A stretch of 39,662 bases of DNA from Candidatus Altimarinota bacterium. Lineage in GTDB: Bacteria > Patescibacteriota > Gracilibacteria > CAIRYL01 > GCA-016699755. The stretch spans positions 1-39,662 of the forward strand of contig JAOARU010000048.1 in assembly GCA_025210675.1 (NCBI GenBank), written 5' to 3'. The translations under genes and the position numbers were made by a program. Positions 4,369 through 14,934 of the stretch are shown in pieces (position 1 is the first letter of the stretch; every line of letters starts with the position of its first letter). The notes beneath the pieces were generated by a model, which was not told the origin of the DNA, did no database searches, and saw nothing but the letters and a program-made list of their open reading frames with translations.

Positions 4369-4779
4369 TTGATTTCATATATATTTCATATTTGGCTTAT
4401 TTTAGCGTTGATTTTGCATTTTGAATTGTATATCATTTTTACAGCGCTTATATTGCGTATGAAAACAAAAATCCCCTATCCATTTAAAAATATAAATTTC
4501 AACCGTACTGCATTCTTGATTCATGGAAAAAGCATGGAACCAATGCTTAGTCATGGCGACATGGTTTTTGTTAATCGTGATTTTGAGAGCCTGCATGGCA
4601 AAATGATAGCTTTTAAAACAAGCAATGAAAAAATTACTGCCAGACGATTTTTTCAAAGAGACGATCGCAGAATTGAATTAAGAGCTGAAAATTCATTTTT
4701 TCCAACAATGGTCATCAATCCTAAAAAAGAGACCCTAGAAATACTTGGAGTCATAGAGTCTACCCTAAAGGGAGTATGA
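4369..4779 (+). CDS. S24/S26-family peptidase-like membrane protein
   Basis: The 136-residue product starts with a hydrophobic segment (about 5-28) and continues into a LexA/signal-peptidase fold. The catalytic serine motif is HGKSMEPML (Ser55) followed by HGDMV, as in both S24 (LexA) and S26 (LepB) families. At the place of the catalytic Lys (xVKRx), the sequence is ITARRFF, so Arg92 seems to replace Lys. The N-terminal membrane anchor favours a signal-peptidase-like role, but the length is short for LepB and activity is uncertain. The start used is TTG at 4369; an internal ATG at 4459 would drop the membrane segment. It ends at a shared terminator that faces the surface-protein operon. Confidence 0.65.
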   Translation: MISYIFHIWLILALILHFELYIIFTALILRMKTKIPYPFKNINFNRTAFLIHGKSMEPMLSHGDMVFVNRDFESLHGKMIAFKTSNEKITARRFFQRDDRRIELRAENSFFPTMVINPKKETLEILGVIESTLKGV

Positions 4780-4804
4780 GGGTGAAATTATTTTCTAAAA
4801 AAAC

Positions 4805-4828
4805 AAAAGCCCTCACCTGAGAGCTTTT
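4805..4828. terminator. Bidirectional terminator between convergent genes
   Basis: AAAAGCCCTCA (4805-4815) pairs with TGAGAGCTTTT (4818-4828) with one imperfect pair. It is flanked by A-runs and T-runs on both strands. It sits between the S24/S26-like gene (plus) and the last gene of the surface operon (minus). Confidence 0.75.
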
Positions 4829-4858
4829 AGCAAAAAAAAACCGTAAATTAAATCAACA

Positions 4859-5707
4859 CTATACTTCTTTGCGACGCATTATAACAGTCGCCGCAAAAAG
4901 AGATACAATCCCAAGCCCGATTTCTTTTGGACCTGTTTGGCTTGTTTTTGGTGCATTTATAGTCTTTTTTGTAGTGTATTTAACTTTATCTTGAATTGTA
5001 TTAATAACTGAACCTTTGTCAGTTTTGCCTGTGTGTGTATTTACTTTAAATTGTGTTGGCTCTTTTTCGACTGCTGCTGAATGTAAATTTTCCATATTCT
5101 CAAATGGATTCACAAACCCTGAATTTGTTGTTGTTTGAATAGGTTTCAAATCTGTAATATTTGTAGCTTCAGGATTTTTTCCAGTTGTTACCGGAGTGAG
5201 TGGTTTTAGCTGAATAGGCTTAGCGGTATTTGTATTTTCTGCTGCTGAATTATGAGTATTGTCAGTCAACGGTATTAGATTGAGTGTTTCTGATGTAGAA
5301 TTAAAATCCAGTTTTTCTTTTGGTTTTTCAGTTTCAACAGCGCTTGTAGATGCTTTTTCTGATTTTAACTCAAGTGGCATGAATTCATTTGAATTAAAAT
5401 TAATTTCTTCAGATTCCACATTAAAATTCTTAGCTGAAAATCCACCTATTTTCTCTTTTTCTTCTTTTGGCATCAGTGCATCTTGAATAGATGCCTTCAT
5501 ACTTGATCCATCACCATCAAATACAAATGGCGCAATTCCAGCCCCCAAAAAAGCAAGTCCCAAAACTGCTAAAAATATAGCCAATCCTTTGCGGGGGACA
5601 TTATGATGAGACAGATCTATATCATGTTCATCATGCAAGATGCCTTTTATTTTTTGATGTGCTTGCTCTGTTTGATGCTCTAGTACGGTTTTCCAATTAT
5701 TGCTCAT
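4859..5707 (-). CDS. Surface-operon membrane protein with TGP-type C-terminal tail
   Basis: I use the ATG at 5707, which forms an ATGA overlap with the stop of the upstream gene, giving 282 residues; a longer frame to 5758 would run into that gene. A charged, His-rich cytoplasmic stretch (1-40) is followed by a membrane segment (41-63), then a long Asn/Thr/Lys-rich low-complexity region with no fold I recognise. The tail has QTGPKE (257-262), a hydrophobic stretch to about 276, and RRK, similar to an LPXTG-like sorting signal. It could be a linker or anchor for the cohesin/dockerin proteins encoded upstream. No sortase is visible in the window, so covalent anchoring is inference. No homologous family is recognised. 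Confidence 0.75.
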   Translation of the reverse strand: MSNNWKTVLEHQTEQAHQKIKGILHDEHDIDLSHHNVPRKGLAIFLAVLGLAFLGAGIAPFVFDGDGSSMKASIQDALMPKEEKEKIGGFSAKNFNVESEEINFNSNEFMPLELKSEKASTSAVETEKPKEKLDFNSTSETLNLIPLTDNTHNSAAENTNTAKPIQLKPLTPVTTGKNPEATNITDLKPIQTTTNSGFVNPFENMENLHSAAVEKEPTQFKVNTHTGKTDKGSVINTIQDKVKYTTKKTINAPKTSQTGPKEIGLGIVSLFAATVIMRRKEV

Positions 5708-6843
5708 TTTATTAATGAAAAAGATTTTCTTAAAGTAACGAAACCCATTGCCAAACAAGCTGAAAATATCCAGACATGTTTTGCTCCTACATCATGAGTT
5801 TTTTGATCTTGAGGGTTAACCAGTTCAACTCCTCCTTTATATATAGCTTCAAGAAATGGGTGGCTTTCTGTACCTGATTGTCCGATTGTGGCAAATACCT
5901 CATCAGAAAAATCAGTCTCCTCCATTTTTGAATTGTAGGCTGTGATAGCAAAGTGATATTTTGTATTATTTTGTAAATTTTCGATTGTTGCATTGTTTGT
6001 TCTACCCAAATCTCTTCTATATACATAAACACCACTTTGAGTTGAATAATATATATAATACCCTTCTACGCTTTCATCAAAATCCCATACAAATTCAGCT
6101 TTTGAATTTCTTGATTTAATTCTAAATCCTTGCGGTCTTTGGAGATTATCTTGAAATGCATTTTCAATTATTTCCTTTTCTTCTTGAGTTGGAATTTGGT
6201 GACTATATGTACCTTCTGGGATTACTGGATCTGGTTTTGTGATTGGTGTATTAGCTCCATTCAATGTCAATTTTAAATTATTTGGTTTTTTTTCTAAGAT
6301 GTTTTCTGTAAGCAATCCTGATATCATAAACACCCCTGTGTTTCCTAGTTCTGAATCTTGATAATTAAAAAACTCAACAGAGCTTTTTTTGTTTTGATCT
6401 GTCAATACTTCAAAAATCACACTAGCAATATAAATCTGATTATTATCAATAGGCGTACCGATATTTGCTCTACCGATTTGTACTATTCCCTCCTGAGCAT
6501 TAATCTTGTCTCCATCAGGTGCAGCAAGCCCAAAATCAGAACCATCAGACTTGATCTCAAGAGCTTTTAATTCAGCTGGATTATATTTTAACCAGCTTGA
6601 TACTGAGCTTATTTTTTTGCTTGCAGGATTATCGATAACTATATCAACAATCACTTTTTCACCTTTTTTAATGACATCTTTTTTTACAAAATAGCCATTT
6701 TCTTTATTTAAAGCTTTACAATTTTCTCTTTCTGTACAATTTTCACCAAATTGCAACTCTGTCTGATTTGCATTTGCATTCGAGATTGACATAAAAGCAA
6801 AACTCATCATTATGCCTAAAAGGATTTTTGTTTTTTTATTCAT
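5704..6843 (-). CDS. Cohesin-like + fibronectin type III membrane-anchored surface protein
   Basis: From the ATG at 6843 the product has 379 residues, with a signal peptide (1-25, ending ANA). Residues 51-195 form a cohesin-like beta module with the signature SWLKYNPAELKALEI, then an AxEGIVQIGRANIG strand and IYIASVIFEVL. Residues 236-321 look like a fibronectin type III domain (FVWDFDESVEGYYIYYS...KYHFAITAYN). A C-terminal membrane segment (about 356-371) preceded by DVGAK and followed by RK anchors it. The cohesin-like module resembles those of the lipoprotein upstream and of the giant protein's N-terminus. Its expected role is to bind a dockerin, perhaps the one ending the giant protein. 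Its stop overlaps the next start (ATGA), and it starts 1 nt after the lipoprotein stop. Confidence 0.75.
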   Translation of the reverse strand: MNKKTKILLGIMMSFAFMSISNANANQTELQFGENCTERENCKALNKENGYFVKKDVIKKGEKVIVDIVIDNPASKKISSVSSWLKYNPAELKALEIKSDGSDFGLAAPDGDKINAQEGIVQIGRANIGTPIDNNQIYIASVIFEVLTDQNKKSSVEFFNYQDSELGNTGVFMISGLLTENILEKKPNNLKLTLNGANTPITKPDPVIPEGTYSHQIPTQEEKEIIENAFQDNLQRPQGFRIKSRNSKAEFVWDFDESVEGYYIYYSTQSGVYVYRRDLGRTNNATIENLQNNTKYHFAITAYNSKMEETDFSDEVFATIGQSGTESHPFLEAIYKGGVELVNPQDQKTHDVGAKHVWIFSACLAMGFVTLRKSFSLIK

Positions 6844-6844
6844 T

Positions 6845-7558
6845 TTATTCTGAAATTTCTGTTTCAATTTTAGCCTCAGCTTGTGCCTCAGCTTCTTTTT
6901 GTTTCTTTATTTCCTCAAGATTTGGCATTTCTTTAACACTGTTGATTATGAGAGCAGGGGACTTAGGTCTTTTAAGTAGACTCTCTGTGATTCCCCTTGA
7001 AATACCTACTATATCTGTATGTCCACCATCTCTGGCATCAAAAAAATCAATATTAATTGTTTCCCTGCTTTTTCTTCTAAATGTAACTATTGCGATAGTT
7101 ATTCTTCCTGCTGGCTCTATTTCTGAAATACTTGAAAACCCAATTTTTATTAAACCATTTTCTTTGTCTATATTTTTTTCATTAGGTGCAAACAAAACTT
7201 TTTCCTCAAGATTTTTATGAATTTCAATATTTGTAGCTTCGATTAAATCAGGATTATAACTCAAAAAACTTCTCACAGAATTAAACTTAATTAAATGTTC
7301 ATTTTTTATGCTCAACAAAACCTTAATTTCATCGTCTTTTTCATTTAACATCTCTAATGACATCGAGATTTTTTTCTCTTGGTTTTCTTGCCTTTGCTTT
7401 GCTATTTTTACTGCATCAAGCAATTCATTTTTTAATGAAGTTTCACTTGCTGCCCGATGACTATTGTTTGACTGAATATTTACCTCTCCTGTTTCTTTTT
7501 CACAAGCAGTCAATGTAAACATAATTAGCAATATCGAAATTATTGAGATTTTTTTCAT
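6845..7558 (-). CDS. Cohesin-like lipoprotein
   Basis: The 237-residue protein has a lipoprotein signal with lipobox LTAC (Cys19), so it is probably tethered to the outer face of the cytoplasmic membrane. A short coiled region (about 37-65) leads into a module (about 65-205) with FLSYNPDLIEATNI, then ENGLIKIGFSS, ITIAIVTFRR and a DFFDARDGG stretch. These line up by eye with SWLKYNPAELKALEI, EGIVQIGRAN and FFNYQDSELG of the next gene, and this pattern fits the cohesin superfamily. The C-terminus is Glu/Lys/Ala-rich and helical. The start overlaps the giant gene's stop (ATGA at 7558-7555). It could be the membrane receptor for the dockerin of the giant protein. The cohesin call is remote and needs a profile search. 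Confidence 0.7.
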   Translation of the reverse strand: MKKISIISILLIMFTLTACEKETGEVNIQSNNSHRAASETSLKNELLDAVKIAKQRQENQEKKISMSLEMLNEKDDEIKVLLSIKNEHLIKFNSVRSFLSYNPDLIEATNIEIHKNLEEKVLFAPNEKNIDKENGLIKIGFSSISEIEPAGRITIAIVTFRRKSRETINIDFFDARDGGHTDIVGISRGITESLLKRPKSPALIINSVKEMPNLEEIKKQKEAEAQAEAKIETEISE

Positions 7559-10500
7559 TGATAATCAAAAATATTTGTGTTGATTTTTTTTGTATCATAA
7601 GGAGTAAATTCTGTCTCCTTCTCCTTATCTTGACCTTGTTGGTTAAATGTTTGTGCAAAAATAGTAAAATCTGTGAAGTCGATTTTTCCATCTTTGTTTA
7701 AATCCATGACATCTATCTCATCGTCTGCTGTTTTTCCATAAACACTAGAAAAAAGTGTGAAATCCAAAAAGTCGATTTTGTTATCCCCGTTGAAATCTGA
7801 TTGTGCAAAAAGTCCTGCTTCATCAACTGGTGGATTATATCCTTTAAATGACTTGCTGCGTGTCTTGAGCTTAGCACCCCCAATTACCTCAAGATCTCTC
7901 TGAAAAACATAATAATCCCTATTTGGAACTTGCCCTTCTGTATAAAGAATAATACTAATATCCTCTTTGCCGATTATTGCCGACTTAACCTTCAAGGCCT
8001 TCTTTTTGTCCTGTTGAATAATCTGAAAATTCTTTCCTGATTCATCAAGTGATGAATATTTTATTGGGTGACTAAATTCAATTTTAATTTCATTTTCACT
8101 AATAGGACTTACATTTTTAATTGTTGCATCTCCCTTGAACTCTTCTTCATCAAATGTTTCAAAATTGATTTGATTATTTGTACCCTGGACATCTTTTATG
8201 CCTAGTGCTTCTGAATCAACAATCAATGTATATCTAGTATCTTCCTGCATAAAATTTGTCTCTAGGTTTACTATTCTTCCGTCTGCACTGACTTTTATTT
8301 TTCTGATAGGCAATCTTTCTGATATATTTTCATAATCCACAACTTTAAACACATTGCTCTTAATTTTTGATGTATCAAGTGGTTTTGAGAACAATATCTC
8401 CACATTACGCTCTGATGTTGCCCTTGTGTTTTTTATATATGGAAGTGGTGATCGATCTTTTGAAACAAACCCATCAGTCACATAAAACTCAAAATTTTCT
8501 TCAGAGCTATTTCCATTCACATCAGTTGCAGTAATTGGAAAAAGGTATGGTTCTGATGATGGAGCAGTTGTTTTTTCTGCTACGATATCAGTTGCAAAAT
8601 ACCATCTTCCCTTTGCCCCCTCTTTGACACTTGGAGTTAGTGTGATGATTTTTTGCTCCAAACTTGGCGCAGCTTCATTTTGCTTTTCTAAGTCTTTGTC
8701 AGCCGTTTCCGTACTTGAAGGTTTTTCTGAATCTTTTGGTGCAAAAATATTTAAACTTGATGATTTTTCATTATTTGTGCCTTTTACCTTGTGTGCGATA
8801 TTTCCAAGATTCACTATCACGCTTTCGATTTCTGCATCACCTTCTTCAACAAATATATATAAAGTTGATCTTGTTTCACCATCATTTGGGATAGACTTTG
8901 GACTCATATAATTTTTGTCAGTATAGATAATTGGCTTATCCCCAGCAAGTGCTCCATCAGACACATGAAATTTAAAATTATCATAACTATAATAATTACC
9001 CTGTTTATCTGTTACTGTAAATTCGATTTCTCTGTGTCCAGGTGTGATAGCTCTATCAACTGTGAGTGGTTCACTTGAAAACCATACACCACCACCTTCC
9101 TCAACAGTTCTATTAAGTGAAATTGGTGGCATGCCTAGTTCCATTAAATTCGCACTAACACTCTCAATATCTTCAGGTCCATTTGGATCTTTTACTTTAA
9201 TGTTCAATGTAAATGTTGAAACTCCATCATTTGCAACACCATTTCTAGGAACTGCATAGATGTCATCTTTGTCAATTGTTGGTACACCACCTGCATTTTT
9301 TTGAATCTTAACCGAAATTTTTGAGCGAGTTTCTTCTCCAGATTTATCTATCACTATTACAGGTAATTCATAAGTACCAGGTTTTACATTTGATGGAACA
9401 AGCAATCCTTTTTCTTCAAACCAGACACTATTTCCAACAACCGTACTAGCATGTGCAGTTGGTACAAATATATTCATAAAAAATGATGTCTCACAGTTTC
9501 TAGTATCATTATTTGGCTTTGCATAATCTCCTTGGCAATTCACACCTTCTTTTAGGCTGTATGAGCGAGTTTGTTTGCTATTGTTGCAACTTGACCATTC
9601 TCCTGCTTCATAATCAGAAGATGTGCACGACCTGAGATTACATGCTTCTTCATTTGGTGGTCTGACACCTGATCCCTCATCGCAATCAACACCACTTTTT
9701 AATTCTACTGAGCGTGTGCGTTTTTCGTTTGAACATTCTGACCAATTTCCAACCACATAATCTCCAGCTGTACATGCAGCCTGTGAGTCGAGGTTTTCAT
9801 ACATATCATCAACTGTCCTCATGACCTTTGTTCCAAGTCCGATTTGACCCAAATCAAGAATTACTTTTGCAATATCATCAGCACCATCGTCGTCAGTTAC
9901 TTCAACATAAAATGTCAAAGGAGTTTGCTCACCTGGTGAGATTTGTGTTGGGTATGAATAAGCACTTGCAACTTCAGGTGGAATACTTGAAGTGAGATCT
10001 TTTGTGATCATAAACTCAACTGTTCCATTTGCTTTGATACCACTTTTATTTTCTGCAATTACATCGATTTTTGTAGGCTCTGATTGAGTCGAAATAGTCG
10101 GCGGAATTGTAATATCAAGATAAAACCACTTCTTATTATCCACCACATTTGCACTCGAATTTTCAGGCGTACTGCCTTGTGTACCCTGGACAAACTCTAC
10201 CCCAGGCTCACCATTAATCGGACGTAGATCAGCAGTCAATTTTGCAATATCATCAATGCCAAGTGGATCTTGAATTCTAACCCAAAGTCTTGTTTTACCA
10301 TATTTATTACTAACCTTGTATGGACTTGCATAAGATTCATCAGAAAGAACCTCTAAATGTTTTACTTTTTCCAAAATCGCAACAGCATTTTTCATATCAG
10401 TTTTATTGCCGAGCGGATCAACTACACTTAATGTATAAACACCACTTTCAAATGTTTCTGGAACAACAGCTTTAATTTTATTTTCTGTCTGTTCGATAAT

Positions 10501-13500
10501 TTCAAGAGTAGTTGAATTTAATTTTACTATTGAATTTTCTATTAAATTTTCTACTGTAATTTCAACCTCTGTATCTTCCGCATTGATAAATGAATTTGGT
10601 GAAACAGATTGAATTATTGTTAATTTTTCATCATAACCAAGAAATCCTTTTGAATTTTTTGAATTAATCAAAATACCATTAGTATTCTTAAACTCATTTG
10701 GATCTACTTTTAAAAAGTATGATTTATTTGCCTGCTGTGAGTATGTCTTGATAAACACCTTACTGCCTTGTTTTGTGGTATTTGTAATTGTGAGCTTTTT
10801 TTCTTCGCCATTTTCATAGCTTACAATTTTAATATTTAATGGAGTTACACTTGAATCATTAGGCTCTTCTGTAAATGTAACTACTAGACTTGTCTTGTCT
10901 TTTACTTCGATATTTTCAATGGCAAAATTCGACTCATTAAAGAAACTATTTTTACCCAAGAAAACTTTTTTATTATAAAAATTTGTAACTGATTTTTCAG
11001 ATTCATAATCCTTAATAGTATCTTTTCTAACTTCCAATAAATATTTTTTAGAAGGAAATGTAGTGATATTTTTAAGTGTAATTGTTTTGTAATCTTTTGA
11101 AATTTCAGCCTTTACATTTTCATCAATCAGATTATTTCCGATAATAATACCGTTGTCATTAACCTGATAAATCGAATAAATATCACACACCCCCTGGGTT
11201 ATTCCTGATTGAGTTGTACATTTACCTGCTGTTGCAGAAGATGCAAATACATTGCGATCAAGATTAATAACTACACCCTCATCTGTTGCTTCAACCCTGC
11301 TTACCCTAGGCGCTGTTTGAGCTATTTCCTCTGCTCCAAATGGCGCAAAAGGAAACACATTTACAGAAAGTATGTCACCATCTTTAGACTTGAGACTCCA
11401 TACACTTGATTCATTTGAAATAACCAACATATTATCACCTTTTGGTTCTGTATTCATTGTGTATGTAGTTGACACAAATGGCCTTACTGTGGTTGAACCC
11501 TGTGGAACTGATACAATTCCAATTCCATGATCAATTTCAGCAAAACCCGCACTTGTTTGCCATGAAAGACTCACATCATCCCCCTTACTTATAATCATTG
11601 GTGATGCCTGCAAATTACAAGACAAATCCTTTATAGAAATCTGAATAGAGTCTTGATTGTCTGATAGATCTGATTCTTCTGTATCTGATTGGATTGCCAC
11701 CTTGTGAATCAGGCCACCTTGAGTGTGTGGATTGATTTTTGCAGTATAATAAATCTCACCCTCCTCATCTGGTTCAAGTGTTGAAAAATTACACTCAATC
11801 AAACCTGCTTTGATTTCACAATTTGGATTTTGATCTACAAAAGTTATATCACTAGAAAAAGGAACCTGATCTATTAATTTAACCTTAACAGAAGTAGTAT
11901 TACCAGTATTTTTATATTTAGTTTTATATGTGATTACGCTTTCTGGTTTCACGATATAATTATCAGCTGTTTTTTGAACGTACAAATTAGCCAATTTATT
12001 ATCTGTAATCAAGATTTTTCTCTGAATTTTTGCTCCATCACTTGATTGGACATTATTTTGAAGAACCCCTGACTTTTTTGCCCTAGCTTTGTATTCAACT
12101 ATCCTGCTTTCATTTGGATTTAAGTTCGAAATCAAGCAACTGATACCGTTTTCATTAACTAGACAGTTATCACTATTTGAAGTGATCTCAAAATCAGTCA
12201 ATATATCTTCCGCACTCATAATATCTGAAACAATAACATTCTTAGCTGGAATCTCCCCGCTATTTACATAGTGAATTGTAAAATTAATCTCATCTCCAAC
12301 ATTTGCTACTGTTTCAGCAACAAAAGCCTTTACATCTACATAAGAAGAATTAAACACCCCTTCATATTGTGTAAATATATTATTTGCTGAGTTAAAGTCA
12401 GCATTTCTCCCTTGAATACTACTTGCGATTTTGATTGACCCAGCCGAAAGCACATTTGCTGTTATTTTTTTTGTACTACTTGATCCTGCTTCAAGTGTTC
12501 CTATATTACATGTAATCTCACTTTTATTTGAGCTGATTTTGCACGAATCTGCATCTTCAATTTCTACAATCTCAAGAGGCTCAATTTTGACAGTCATGAT
12601 TACATTTTGTGCAGCCTGATTACCTAGATTTGCAAAATTTGCACTATATTCAAGTGATCCATCTACTACCCTTCCTTCACCAAACACCTTTAAATCAGAT
12701 TGTTGTTGATCCTGAATTTTTAATTTCAACTCTGATGAACCCGTAAAGCCACTTGTTTGAATTGCTGCTTCTGTCCTAATTTCACCTTCTTGTTTCGCTA
12801 TTACCCTATATGAAATAGCCCTTGATTCTGCTGGATTTAATTCCTCAAAATCACAAGAAATATCTCCTGAAAATGGATCATGTGAACAATCTGTAGTTGA
12901 AAGACTGTTATTTACAAATTCCAATCCTGCTGGAACATTATCAAACAAATTAATATCTTTAATACTTGTATTTCCAGTATTTTTAAATTGTACTCCAATT
13001 TCTATTTCTTCATCTTTTTTAAGCACGCTTGCAGAAGCAAATTTATCAAAAAGCATTTTTACTTTATCTTGCTCCCTTACTTCAATCATAAAACCTTGCT
13101 CATTGTTATCAAGATCAGACTCAATTGTATTAGCTCCTCTGATGACTGAATAAAACGAAGCATTACCACTCTTCAATTTTAATCCTTCAAATTTTAATGT
13201 GCCCTCTTCTCCTGATTCCAATTTCTTTATGTCACATCTTAATATTTTTTGATCTTTTGAAATCAAACAATTACAAGATCCGTTTTCAGCATCATCATAA
13301 CTACAATCTACAGAATTGCTATCATTATTGATCTCCAAAACTTCATTTAAGACAGTTATATTTATATATCCACCCCCTGAAATCTTGTTTCCTGTGTTTT
13401 TAAAATCAGTTTTAAATTTATATCTATCACCATACTCAGTGTAAGTAGTATCAACTTTTAAATCAGCAAAATACTCCGCAGTGATCCTGATTTTCTCATA

Positions 13501-14934
13501 ATCACTATTGTCATTTGGGTTCAAATCATTACCATCTGAGCTAATACTAGCCTCACCTGATACAATTCCAACCTGTGTCGCTGTTGCACTATATGAAGCC
13601 TGCCCTTTTTGACCACCCACTACATTACCCAATTCACATGTAATTTTGCGAGTTTCAAAATTTAGCTCACAACCAGATGGTGATACTCCAAATTCTAACC
13701 CCTCAGGTAACTCATCTATGATTTTTGCATTTTTAGCTGTTCCCTTGGCCTTGTTTTCATAACTAAATGTAAAGAAAACCATATTTGAAGTATTCACCAC
13801 TGTTCTATCAGCAGTTTTTTGCAATGTTAAGTCTGGATCATTTGAAACCAACACATCAACTGAGCAGCTTTGTTTTTTGCTAAGATCTGTTTGCCCAGCT
13901 GTAATCGCTCTTAATACCCTTGGATCATCTGTTGGTCTTACACTAACTATGTTTAAGTTCCAAGCGTTAAAATCAACTTGTTCAATTGAGCTTGGATTTA
14001 CATCTTTTGAAAACTCTATATCAAGAGTGTTTTCATCTACTGCTACAACATCAGTAACATAAAAATCTGAAATCCCAGTAGTATTTGCATACCCTGTAAA
14101 AAAAGCAAAATTATAATTAGACGAGATAGCCCCACTCGAATTTCCCTGAGCAGTACCAGCAACCTCTAAACGGTATTCTTGTCCTGCTATTTGCTCTTTT
14201 AAATTTTTAATAACTACCTTTGTATTTTGAATTTCAAGTGTAGTTGAATCTTTCTTTAATTCAGGTGTAAATGCAAAATCCTGAATTGCCATCTGGCTAA
14301 TATAATCAGAAAATTGCACCTCAATACTTGTAGACGAAATAACATGTGCATCAATCACTCTAAAATCACCCTCATTTTCAATTGTGATCTTTCCGCTCTC
14401 AGTGGTCAAAACTCTCTCAGAAAGTGAACCTGATTCCTGAACAATAGAAAACTCCTTTAATCTTACAGGAATACTTGTCCCCAGTGGCACATCAGATGAG
14501 ACCTTCATAGCGACCCTAATAAATGCGTCACCCTTTTTAATATTTATGCCATTTCCACCTGTCGCTGCGATAGCCTTTAGCACACCTGATTCTTTATTAT
14601 TGGCTTCAGTCAAAAATCCCTGCTCATGAAAAGGCGTGCCAGTTGTGTCAATTCCCAACGAGCTTAACTCTTGTGGATTCCACTCTAATGTAAATGCGTA
14701 TCCAACAACATTTTCAAAATCCTTATTTGCCTTAATTTCAATATCACCAGCTTGATTTTGCTGAGTTTTGTAATTCTGAGGAACATAGACTTCTTGAGCA
14801 CTTTCTTGCTCGTCCCCCTTAGTCGCAAATAGATCTGCTTTATAGTCGTCACTTGGCATTAGGAATACAAATCCCAATATTAGCGCTATACAAAGCCCTA
14901 CGCACGATGCTATAATTTTTGTTTTCTTGTTCAC
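7555..14934 (-). CDS. Giant surface protein: N-terminal cohesin-like module, DUF11/Ig-like repeats, C-terminal type I dockerin
   Basis: This 2459-residue protein starts with GTG at 14934. Residues 7-26 are a membrane or signal segment. Residues 62-186 form a cohesin-like module (FTLEWNPQELSSLGI). Residues 187-365 are two SbsA/Big_5-like Ig domains. Residues 366-1103 hold six DUF11/CARDB-like repeats of about 120 residues (KNTGN motifs and paired Cys). An SxxLSW Ig-like domain (1104-1165) and two Big_5-like domains (1207-1434) follow, then an IPT/TIG domain (1437-1522). Four Ig-like repeats with DDIAK/EDIES motifs (1523-2155) come next, one interrupted by two thrombospondin-1-like repeats (1720-1815), then two Big_5 domains (2161-2365). 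A dockerin ends the protein, with two calcium loops: Asp2380/Asn2382/Asp2384/Asp2388/Asp2391 and Asp2411/Asn2413/Asp2415/Asp2419/Asp2422. It is first in a coupled four-gene operon. Confidence 0.85.
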   Translation of the reverse strand: MNKKTKIIASCVGLCIALILGFVFLMPSDDYKADLFATKGDEQESAQEVYVPQNYKTQQNQAGDIEIKANKDFENVVGYAFTLEWNPQELSSLGIDTTGTPFHEQGFLTEANNKESGVLKAIAATGGNGINIKKGDAFIRVAMKVSSDVPLGTSIPVRLKEFSIVQESGSLSERVLTTESGKITIENEGDFRVIDAHVISSTSIEVQFSDYISQMAIQDFAFTPELKKDSTTLEIQNTKVVIKNLKEQIAGQEYRLEVAGTAQGNSSGAISSNYNFAFFTGYANTTGISDFYVTDVVAVDENTLDIEFSKDVNPSSIEQVDFNAWNLNIVSVRPTDDPRVLRAITAGQTDLSKKQSCSVDVLVSNDPDLTLQKTADRTVVNTSNMVFFTFSYENKAKGTAKNAKIIDELPEGLEFGVSPSGCELNFETRKITCELGNVVGGQKGQASYSATATQVGIVSGEASISSDGNDLNPNDNSDYEKIRITAEYFADLKVDTTYTEYGDRYKFKTDFKNTGNKISGGGYINITVLNEVLEINNDSNSVDCSYDDAENGSCNCLISKDQKILRCDIKKLESGEEGTLKFEGLKLKSGNASFYSVIRGANTIESDLDNNEQGFMIEVREQDKVKMLFDKFASASVLKKDEEIEIGVQFKNTGNTSIKDINLFDNVPAGLEFVNNSLSTTDCSHDPFSGDISCDFEELNPAESRAISYRVIAKQEGEIRTEAAIQTSGFTGSSELKLKIQDQQQSDLKVFGEGRVVDGSLEYSANFANLGNQAAQNVIMTVKIEPLEIVEIEDADSCKISSNKSEITCNIGTLEAGSSSTKKITANVLSAGSIKIASSIQGRNADFNSANNIFTQYEGVFNSSYVDVKAFVAETVANVGDEINFTIHYVNSGEIPAKNVIVSDIMSAEDILTDFEITSNSDNCLVNENGISCLISNLNPNESRIVEYKARAKKSGVLQNNVQSSDGAKIQRKILITDNKLANLYVQKTADNYIVKPESVITYKTKYKNTGNTTSVKVKLIDQVPFSSDITFVDQNPNCEIKAGLIECNFSTLEPDEEGEIYYTAKINPHTQGGLIHKVAIQSDTEESDLSDNQDSIQISIKDLSCNLQASPMIISKGDDVSLSWQTSAGFAEIDHGIGIVSVPQGSTTVRPFVSTTYTMNTEPKGDNMLVISNESSVWSLKSKDGDILSVNVFPFAPFGAEEIAQTAPRVSRVEATDEGVVINLDRNVFASSATAGKCTTQSGITQGVCDIYSIYQVNDNGIIIGNNLIDENVKAEISKDYKTITLKNITTFPSKKYLLEVRKDTIKDYESEKSVTNFYNKKVFLGKNSFFNESNFAIENIEVKDKTSLVVTFTEEPNDSSVTPLNIKIVSYENGEEKKLTITNTTKQGSKVFIKTYSQQANKSYFLKVDPNEFKNTNGILINSKNSKGFLGYDEKLTIIQSVSPNSFINAEDTEVEITVENLIENSIVKLNSTTLEIIEQTENKIKAVVPETFESGVYTLSVVDPLGNKTDMKNAVAILEKVKHLEVLSDESYASPYKVSNKYGKTRLWVRIQDPLGIDDIAKLTADLRPINGEPGVEFVQGTQGSTPENSSANVVDNKKWFYLDITIPPTISTQSEPTKIDVIAENKSGIKANGTVEFMITKDLTSSIPPEVASAYSYPTQISPGEQTPLTFYVEVTDDDGADDIAKVILDLGQIGLGTKVMRTVDDMYENLDSQAACTAGDYVVGNWSECSNEKRTRSVELKSGVDCDEGSGVRPPNEEACNLRSCTSSDYEAGEWSSCNNSKQTRSYSLKEGVNCQGDYAKPNNDTRNCETSFFMNIFVPTAHASTVVGNSVWFEEKGLLVPSNVKPGTYELPVIVIDKSGEETRSKISVKIQKNAGGVPTIDKDDIYAVPRNGVANDGVSTFTLNIKVKDPNGPEDIESVSANLMELGMPPISLNRTVEEGGGVWFSSEPLTVDRAITPGHREIEFTVTDKQGNYYSYDNFKFHVSDGALAGDKPIIYTDKNYMSPKSIPNDGETRSTLYIFVEEGDAEIESVIVNLGNIAHKVKGTNNEKSSSLNIFAPKDSEKPSSTETADKDLEKQNEAAPSLEQKIITLTPSVKEGAKGRWYFATDIVAEKTTAPSSEPYLFPITATDVNGNSSEENFEFYVTDGFVSKDRSPLPYIKNTRATSERNVEILFSKPLDTSKIKSNVFKVVDYENISERLPIRKIKVSADGRIVNLETNFMQEDTRYTLIVDSEALGIKDVQGTNNQINFETFDEEEFKGDATIKNVSPISENEIKIEFSHPIKYSSLDESGKNFQIIQQDKKKALKVKSAIIGKEDISIILYTEGQVPNRDYYVFQRDLEVIGGAKLKTRSKSFKGYNPPVDEAGLFAQSDFNGDNKIDFLDFTLFSSVYGKTADDEIDVMDLNKDGKIDFTDFTIFAQTFNQQGQDKEKETEFTPYDTKKINTNIFDYQ

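Follow-up and report, generated by a model that had tools for sequence, protein, structure and literature searches.

A conserved four-gene cohesin-dockerin locus, probably for surface assembly, in a Candidatus Altimarinota genome

Analysis of contig JAOARU010000048.1 from a Candidatus Altimarinota bacterium of the class Gracilibacteria (assembly GCA_025210675.1) led to the recognition of a four-gene block on the minus strand, running from position 14934 to 4859. The window, i.e. the whole stretch of 39,662 nucleotides that was analysed, is the entire contig; the genome comprises 982 kb in 64 contigs and is 99.8% complete. Its products are a giant surface protein that bears both a cohesin and a dockerin, a lipoprotein with a cohesin, a protein of the cohesin-FN3 type and a further anchored protein. 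The same gene order occurs in 13 other genomes, and no dockerin-bearing enzyme was found in this one. We consider it probable that the locus is a surface-assembly operon, in which an enzyme-free, calcium-dependent surface fibre would be held by lipid- and wall-anchored cohesins. A preliminary description of the DNA, made from the letters alone, had proposed a four-gene cohesin/dockerin surface operon; the four abutting minus-strand open reading frames (ORFs), together with evidence from Pfam, family profiles and predicted structure, bear this out.

Genes and modules

The genes and their recognised modules are as follows.

7555..14934, minus strand: gene 1, giant surface protein of 2459 amino acids (ORF, Pfam, ends kept in 14 relatives)
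6845..7558, minus strand: gene 2, cohesin lipoprotein of 237 amino acids (ORF)
5704..6867, minus strand: gene 3, cohesin-FN3 protein of 387 amino acids (ORF, Pfam, AlphaFold model)
4859..5758, minus strand: gene 4, anchored protein of 299 amino acids (ORF, conserved fourth gene in relatives)
14380..14745, minus strand: N-terminal cohesin of the giant (PF00963 at 23.5 bits, E 3.4e-5 in the genome search; family profile)
7061..7339, minus strand: cohesin of the lipoprotein (PF00963, relatives, homology to the gene 3 cohesin)
6376..6681, minus strand: cohesin of gene 3 (PF00963 above cut-off, Foldseek)
5896..6135, minus strand: FN3 domain of gene 3 (PF00041 at 29.9 bits, cut-off 25)
7648..7800, minus strand: C-terminal two-loop dockerin of the giant, DFNGDNKIDFLDFTLF and DLNKDGKIDFTDFTIF (PF00404 above cut-off; PDB dockerins and EF-hands)

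Gene 1 starts with GTG, and the likely starts of genes 3 and 4 are ATG codons at 6843 (giving a protein of 379 amino acids) and 5707. With these starts genes 1 and 2 overlap by 4 bp, genes 2 and 3 are spaced by 1 bp and genes 3 and 4 overlap by a few bp, an arrangement which suggests that all four are carried on a single transcript.

The giant consists of an N-terminal membrane segment, a cohesin, five DUF11 repeats, a TIG and a Big_5-like region and the C-terminal dockerin; Pfam matches on the protein also included DUF4625. The dockerin scored 26.3 bits against PF00404 (cut-off 22.9) and has two calcium-loop repeats, in agreement with the two-loop dockerin that had been read from the sequence at this end. 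The first dockerins in its list of PDB matches were 2jnk/2ozn, from Clostridium perfringens glycosidases. A dockerin search of the genome returned no second convincing dockerin, and no relatives were confirmed when the giant was used as query against the genome contigs.

The modules of the giant, the lipoprotein and gene 3 are placed in the cohesin family, as had been proposed, by Pfam, by family profiles or by the predicted structure, and no non-cohesin fold emerged for any of them. At the level of families, each of the three resembles either solved cohesins or members that score above the cut-off. Gene 3 reached 28.1 bits against PF00963 (cut-off 24.1), and most of its cohesin is modelled by AlphaFold with a predicted local distance difference test score (pLDDT) of about 90. 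Foldseek matched this model best to 2w1n, the cohesin-FN3 pair of a C. perfringens glycosidase (5.2e-12), and further to many cohesins, for example 3ul4 with a target-normalised TM score of 0.72. The N-terminus of the giant alone scored 23.0-23.5 bits, below the cut-off; a profile of this module built from 13 genomes matched 16 PDB sequences (threshold E 1), every one of them a cohesin or a chain that contains one, with 6kg8 as the best (E 3.6e-5). The lipoprotein alone gave 13.9 bits, again below the cut-off; PF00963 was matched by 7 of its 11 relatives (best 1.5e-9), and hhalign showed its module to be a homologue of the cohesin in gene 3 (99.9%, E 3.4e-35). Profile searches of the PDB with alignments A1 and A2 returned FN3 proteins only and no meaningful match, respectively. 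A shared (W/Y)NPxxL signature had been noted for the three modules; it holds for the giant (WNPQEL) and gene 3 (YNPAEL), whereas the lipoprotein has YNPDLI, with I for L.

Because hhalign found no similarity between the giant's N-terminal cohesin and either of the other two, we interpret it as a different cohesin type. In a tree the lipoprotein and FN3-type cohesins fall on opposite sides of one branch (100/99), which points to an old duplication, and they form separate, old groups. A PF00963 search of the whole genome revealed no cohesin beyond these three, one per protein.

Conservation and variant layouts

A check of gene neighbourhoods, suggested in the preliminary description, recovered the order giant, cohesin lipoprotein, cohesin-FN3 protein and gene 4 in nine family-assigned loci, given here with their genomes: L031 (G016), L032 (G059), L033 (G052), L034 (G036), L035 (G045), L036 (G027), L037 (G018), L044 (G001) and L058 (G029). 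Four named contigs without family assignment have it as well (L074, L076, L079 and L081, with the giant of L076 cut by the contig end). The block spans at least families f1, f10, f12 and f17, and gene 4, which has no cohesin, is a conserved member of it. G002 has the block in two pieces, the giant and the lipoprotein on one contig and the FN3 protein and gene 4 on another. The L037 block is open only when TGA is read as sense (glycine), and the operon is thus also found in recoded members of the class. In-frame TGA codons were counted in two gene 3 relatives, 4 in G018 C38 (L037) and 24 in G019 C12.

The giants range from 721 amino acids (L074) to the 2459 of the window and keep both ends, i.e. 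a membrane segment, a short motif and a cohesin on one side and a dockerin loop on the other, joined by a variable immunoglobulin (Ig)-like chain. Across ten aligned giants the dockerin loop residues are invariant, and the residues after the loop are strictly conserved too. Two loops are present in the giants of the window, G001, G004, G005 and G007. One-loop giants were located at L031 7660-12933, L034 3604-8763, L036 6420-11531 and L037 5755-10296, their loop being nearly unchanged between distant families.

Around this core the layout varies. In seven loci the DNA immediately upstream of the giant encodes further large proteins whose C-termini are dockerin-like (L031, 12964-16908; L033, 10588-14502; L034; L036, 11556-14987; L037; L039, 2757-12607; L044, 15803-18319); in the window there is only the giant, with a divergent gene next to it and no further dockerin protein. 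In family f5 a protein of 109-145 amino acids, consisting of a membrane segment plus a two-loop dockerin, is encoded directly before the cohesin-FN3 gene (L048, L049, L051, L052, L057), and in several cases a gene with a gene-4-like tail comes after it. In family f3 (L045) the place of the giant is taken by a 493-residue protein with the juxtamembrane motif described below and a one-loop dockerin. Families f14 and f18 (L047 2843-4462, L055 6941-8452) encode chains of 503-539 amino acids with cohesin and dockerin matches in the same protein, beside another anchored protein. The feature that recurs across these layouts is an anchored cohesin adjoining a dockerin.

Among 59 class relatives, searched at E up to 0.01, 33 have a cohesin match and 27 a dockerin match (both in 22, cohesin only in 11, dockerin only in 5, neither in 21), which by genome gives an odds ratio for co-occurrence of 8.4 (p 5e-4, uncorrected for kinship). 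In a phylum sample of 380 genomes the lipoprotein profile matched 25; most of these belong to the same class, and in most it was the gene 3 type that matched. When named genomes were scanned, the full-length relatives of gene 3 came from Candidatus Peregrinibacteria, Patescibacteria group bacterium and one entry named 'bacterium', relatives by which the genome of the window itself would be placed in Candidatus Peregrinibacteria; matches at greater distance covered the FN3 domain alone and were left out of the homologues. A count of 228 of 353 genomes with a match was not taken as the distribution of the family, many of these matches being FN3 only.

After gene 4, four loci have a gene for a protein of about 210 amino acids that looks by eye like a metallo-hydrolase (L074 6428-7069, L076 3379-4020, L079 12929-13555, L081 12542-13183); it is missing from the window.

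Anchors and short motifs

The segments by which the products could be fixed at the surface, and the motif next to the giant's membrane segment, are listed below.

14860..14916, minus strand: membrane segment at the N-terminus of the giant, residues 7-25 (19 residues with a hydropathy of 2.85)
14827..14844, minus strand: juxtamembrane motif YKADLF of the giant, residues 31-36
5707..5793, minus strand: C-terminal sorting-like tail of gene 3, DVGAKH, helix and basic residues (alignment; model helix 355-378)
4862..4942, minus strand: C-terminal sorting-like tail of gene 4, SQTGPKE, helix and RRKEV

Gene 2 is predicted to encode a bacterial lipoprotein, with a signal peptide and the lipobox LTAC; the lipobox cysteine (Cys19) is nearly invariant in the family, and the match to the Pfam model LPAM_1 is 13.1 bits, below the cut-off of 20. 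In relatives of gene 3 the C-terminus reads QNGP, TGP, SGP or TGM, followed by a hydrophobic helix and basic residues, and the tail in the window (DVGAKH) is a degenerate version. Relatives of gene 4 end similarly, with TGP or SGP, a helix and basic residues. Across relatives both tails look like a sortase-type sorting signal. The pattern was found in 36 of 453 ORFs of these loci, mostly gene 3, gene 4 or positional counterparts as labelled by eye. The genome holds one sortase (PF04203, 89.5 bits) with TGHS and TCTP motifs; a sortase has also been noted in Peribacteria (PMC4736985). Of the three anchoring modes claimed to lie side by side, all read here from sequence patterns, the N-terminal membrane segment and the lipidation site stand, whereas the supposed membrane tail of gene 3 has, in relatives, the appearance of a sortase-type signal.

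The gene 4 protein has a W-K-T motif predicted to be cytoplasmic, a membrane segment, the motif MKASIQ (5483-5500) and an NTHTG motif. A juxtamembrane motif (hydrophobic-x-A/G/S-D/A/S/N-L/I) soon after the N-terminal membrane segment is common to the giants, the upstream dockerin proteins and gene 4. Among ORFs with an N-terminal membrane segment in these loci, 33 of 233 have it, mostly operon members by labels again assigned by eye; this enrichment is descriptive only, since the pattern was drawn up after the family had been seen and without a shuffled control. The motif is possibly an undescribed targeting or processing signal.

Assembly models, known systems and genomic setting

In the surface-fibre model that we prefer, gene 1 would provide a very long Ig-like chain, with a cohesin close to the membrane segment at its N-terminus and, towards the other end, a dockerin that would bind calcium. 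Genes 2 and 3 would provide sockets, the former a cohesin tethered in the membrane by lipid and the latter a cohesin-FN3 unit fixed by its C-terminal tail, probably to the wall by sortase. The giant's dockerin would plug in a calcium-dependent manner into the cohesin of gene 2, gene 3 or both; mutual binding of the partners had likewise been put forward, as inference, in the preliminary description. The fibre would then have two attachment points at the surface, or would be held only through the cohesins if the N-terminal segment is cut. Gene 4, whose product would span from the cytoplasm to another sorting-like tail, may take part in positioning or tethering the complex. The assembled structure would have no catalytic role and would serve as a coat or adhesin, by which the cell attaches to surfaces or to partner cells. 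We count in favour of this model the identities of the cohesins and the dockerin, the four-gene order kept in 13 other genomes, the co-occurrence of cohesin and dockerin by genome, the conserved neighbourhood of anchored cohesins and dockerins, the lipobox, the sorting-like tails, the single sortase, the separate, old groups of lipoprotein and FN3-type cohesins and the resemblance of the gene 3 fold and the dockerin to modules of C. perfringens glycosidases.

Several observations weigh against it. No NCBIfam or LPXTG anchor model matches genes 3 and 4. In several f2 genomes the giant and the FN3 protein are on different contigs, and the lipoprotein was not found in some. Counted by family, the co-occurrence of cohesin and dockerin is not significant (p 0.12). 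The giants of f10 and G018 have a single dockerin loop, and the dockerin of the window's giant also resembles ordinary EF-hands, with many plain EF-hand matches in the PDB. A model of the 721-residue mini-giant of L074 reached a pLDDT of 55-65 over the dockerin, and no interface could be read from it; at this low confidence it was set aside as uninformative on an intrachain cohesin-dockerin contact, and its Foldseek matches were generic Ig-chain proteins.

The loop number and the EF-hand matches, together with the genomes in which a cohesin or a dockerin occurs alone, would also fit a dockerin that acts only as a calcium-stabilised end cap, with its true partner, if any, elsewhere and with the cohesins serving as general Ig-like adhesion modules. 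We find this doubtful, as an anchored cohesin adjoins a dockerin repeatedly in very different layouts and the dockerin loop and following residues are strictly conserved. Another arrangement is suggested by the position of cohesin and dockerin at opposite ends of the giant in all complete family members examined: the dockerin of one giant could bind the N-terminal cohesin of the next, giving filaments by head-to-tail polymerisation, and the lipoprotein and FN3 cohesins would only root or cap them. Such a polymer is unlikely, in that the N-terminal cohesin lies beside the membrane segment, a hindrance unless this is cut, and the gene 2 and gene 3 cohesins are left without a clear role.

Anchored cohesins and a dockerin protein are also the parts from which cellulosomes are built, and a reduced cellulosome would use the cohesins to display dockerin-bearing enzymes. 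However, the sole convincing dockerin in this nearly complete genome is on the giant, a protein without a recognised catalytic domain. A GH9 search of the genome gave no match and a GH5 search one fragment of 12.3 bits, below cut-off (these two glycosidase families were searched, others not), and no tandem-cohesin scaffoldin was found with PF00963. Carbohydrate-binding modules were absent from the Pfam matches of the four proteins, the rest of the genome not having been searched for them. With no dockerin-bearing enzyme, no multi-cohesin scaffoldin, no GH9 and no significant GH5 match, the cellulosome reading was rejected as very improbable; the earlier statement that cellulase genes are lacking agrees with these searches.

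The surface-fibre model shares with the cellulosome, including its anchoring scaffoldins and type I and II cohesins, the cohesin and dockerin families and the surface anchors, and differs in having a giant fibre in place of dockerin enzymes, a tandem scaffoldin and GH9. In the secreted C. perfringens glycosidases (2w1n; 2jnk, 2ozn), which include the best structural match of gene 3 and the first dockerin among the PDB matches of the giant's dockerin, these modules are on enzymes, whereas here they are on non-catalytic anchored or giant proteins of one operon. Extracellular, non-cellulosomal cohesin and dockerin proteins proposed for cell interactions are described in archaea, including anaerobic methanotrophic archaea (PMC9012536); these belong to another lineage, their domain sets vary and include binding proteins of ABC transporters as well as chains with several cohesins, and the available part of that report describes no four-gene block. 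Cloacimonadota are among the other nearest published cohesin/dockerin cases (PMC8542988).

Huge envelope proteins with DUF11/FN3 domains or dockerins are known from small host-dependent or symbiotic bacteria. Vampirococcus, a predatory member of the candidate phyla radiation (CPR), has giant DUF11/FN3 surface proteins (PMC8080830), Omnitrophota have dockerin-bearing giants (PMC10066038), and huge proteins are enriched in Peregrinibacteria (PMC11573180); the accessible portions of these three papers report no cohesin partner. The Vampirococcus giants and the Peregrinibacteria enrichment fit a surface role of the operon. Similar by description only is SEML1_0315 of a cultured Saccharibacteria epibiont, an essential dockerin protein of a CPR envelope for which its authors, unlike our proposal, suggest host glycans as target (PMC10633639). 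No cohesin/dockerin system in Peregrinibacteria, Gracilibacteria, Patescibacteria or CPR was found in the literature, consistent with the view that none of this layout had been described, which is weak evidence of absence as only open-licence papers were covered.

How CPR bacteria build their surface, hold partners and attach giant proteins is an open field, and the operon names candidate plug-and-socket pairs, the small dockerin protein and cohesin-FN3 protein of family f5 being a compact one. If the model is right, a large group of uncultured bacteria would have in common a dedicated surface architecture built by cohesin-dockerin assembly without enzymes, and the operon might help to explain dockerin proteins elsewhere in CPR, such as that of the epibiont. 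More tentatively, and with rather less confidence than we would need to favour it, the outer surface of Peregrinibacteria may be partly made of giant Ig-like fibres locked by dockerin-cohesin plugs on cohesins that are anchored by lipid and by sortase. Such an assembly system would be old, would work without enzymes, would have a juxtamembrane motif of its own and would serve to hold host or sister cells.

Two signals found by consensus matching flank the operon.

14993-14965: promoter-like match ahead of gene 1
4804..4829, minus strand: terminator-like hairpin after gene 4, 11 pairs and a T run

Just beyond gene 4, a gene for a LexA/signal-peptidase-like peptidase (4369-4779) is convergent to the operon. 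Further along, a Ccr-type recombinase-like gene (1227-2675; NCBIfam CcrA model at 4e-12, far below cut-off) overlaps the end of a tRNA-Asn gene (2646-2720) and is possibly the trace of a mobile element.

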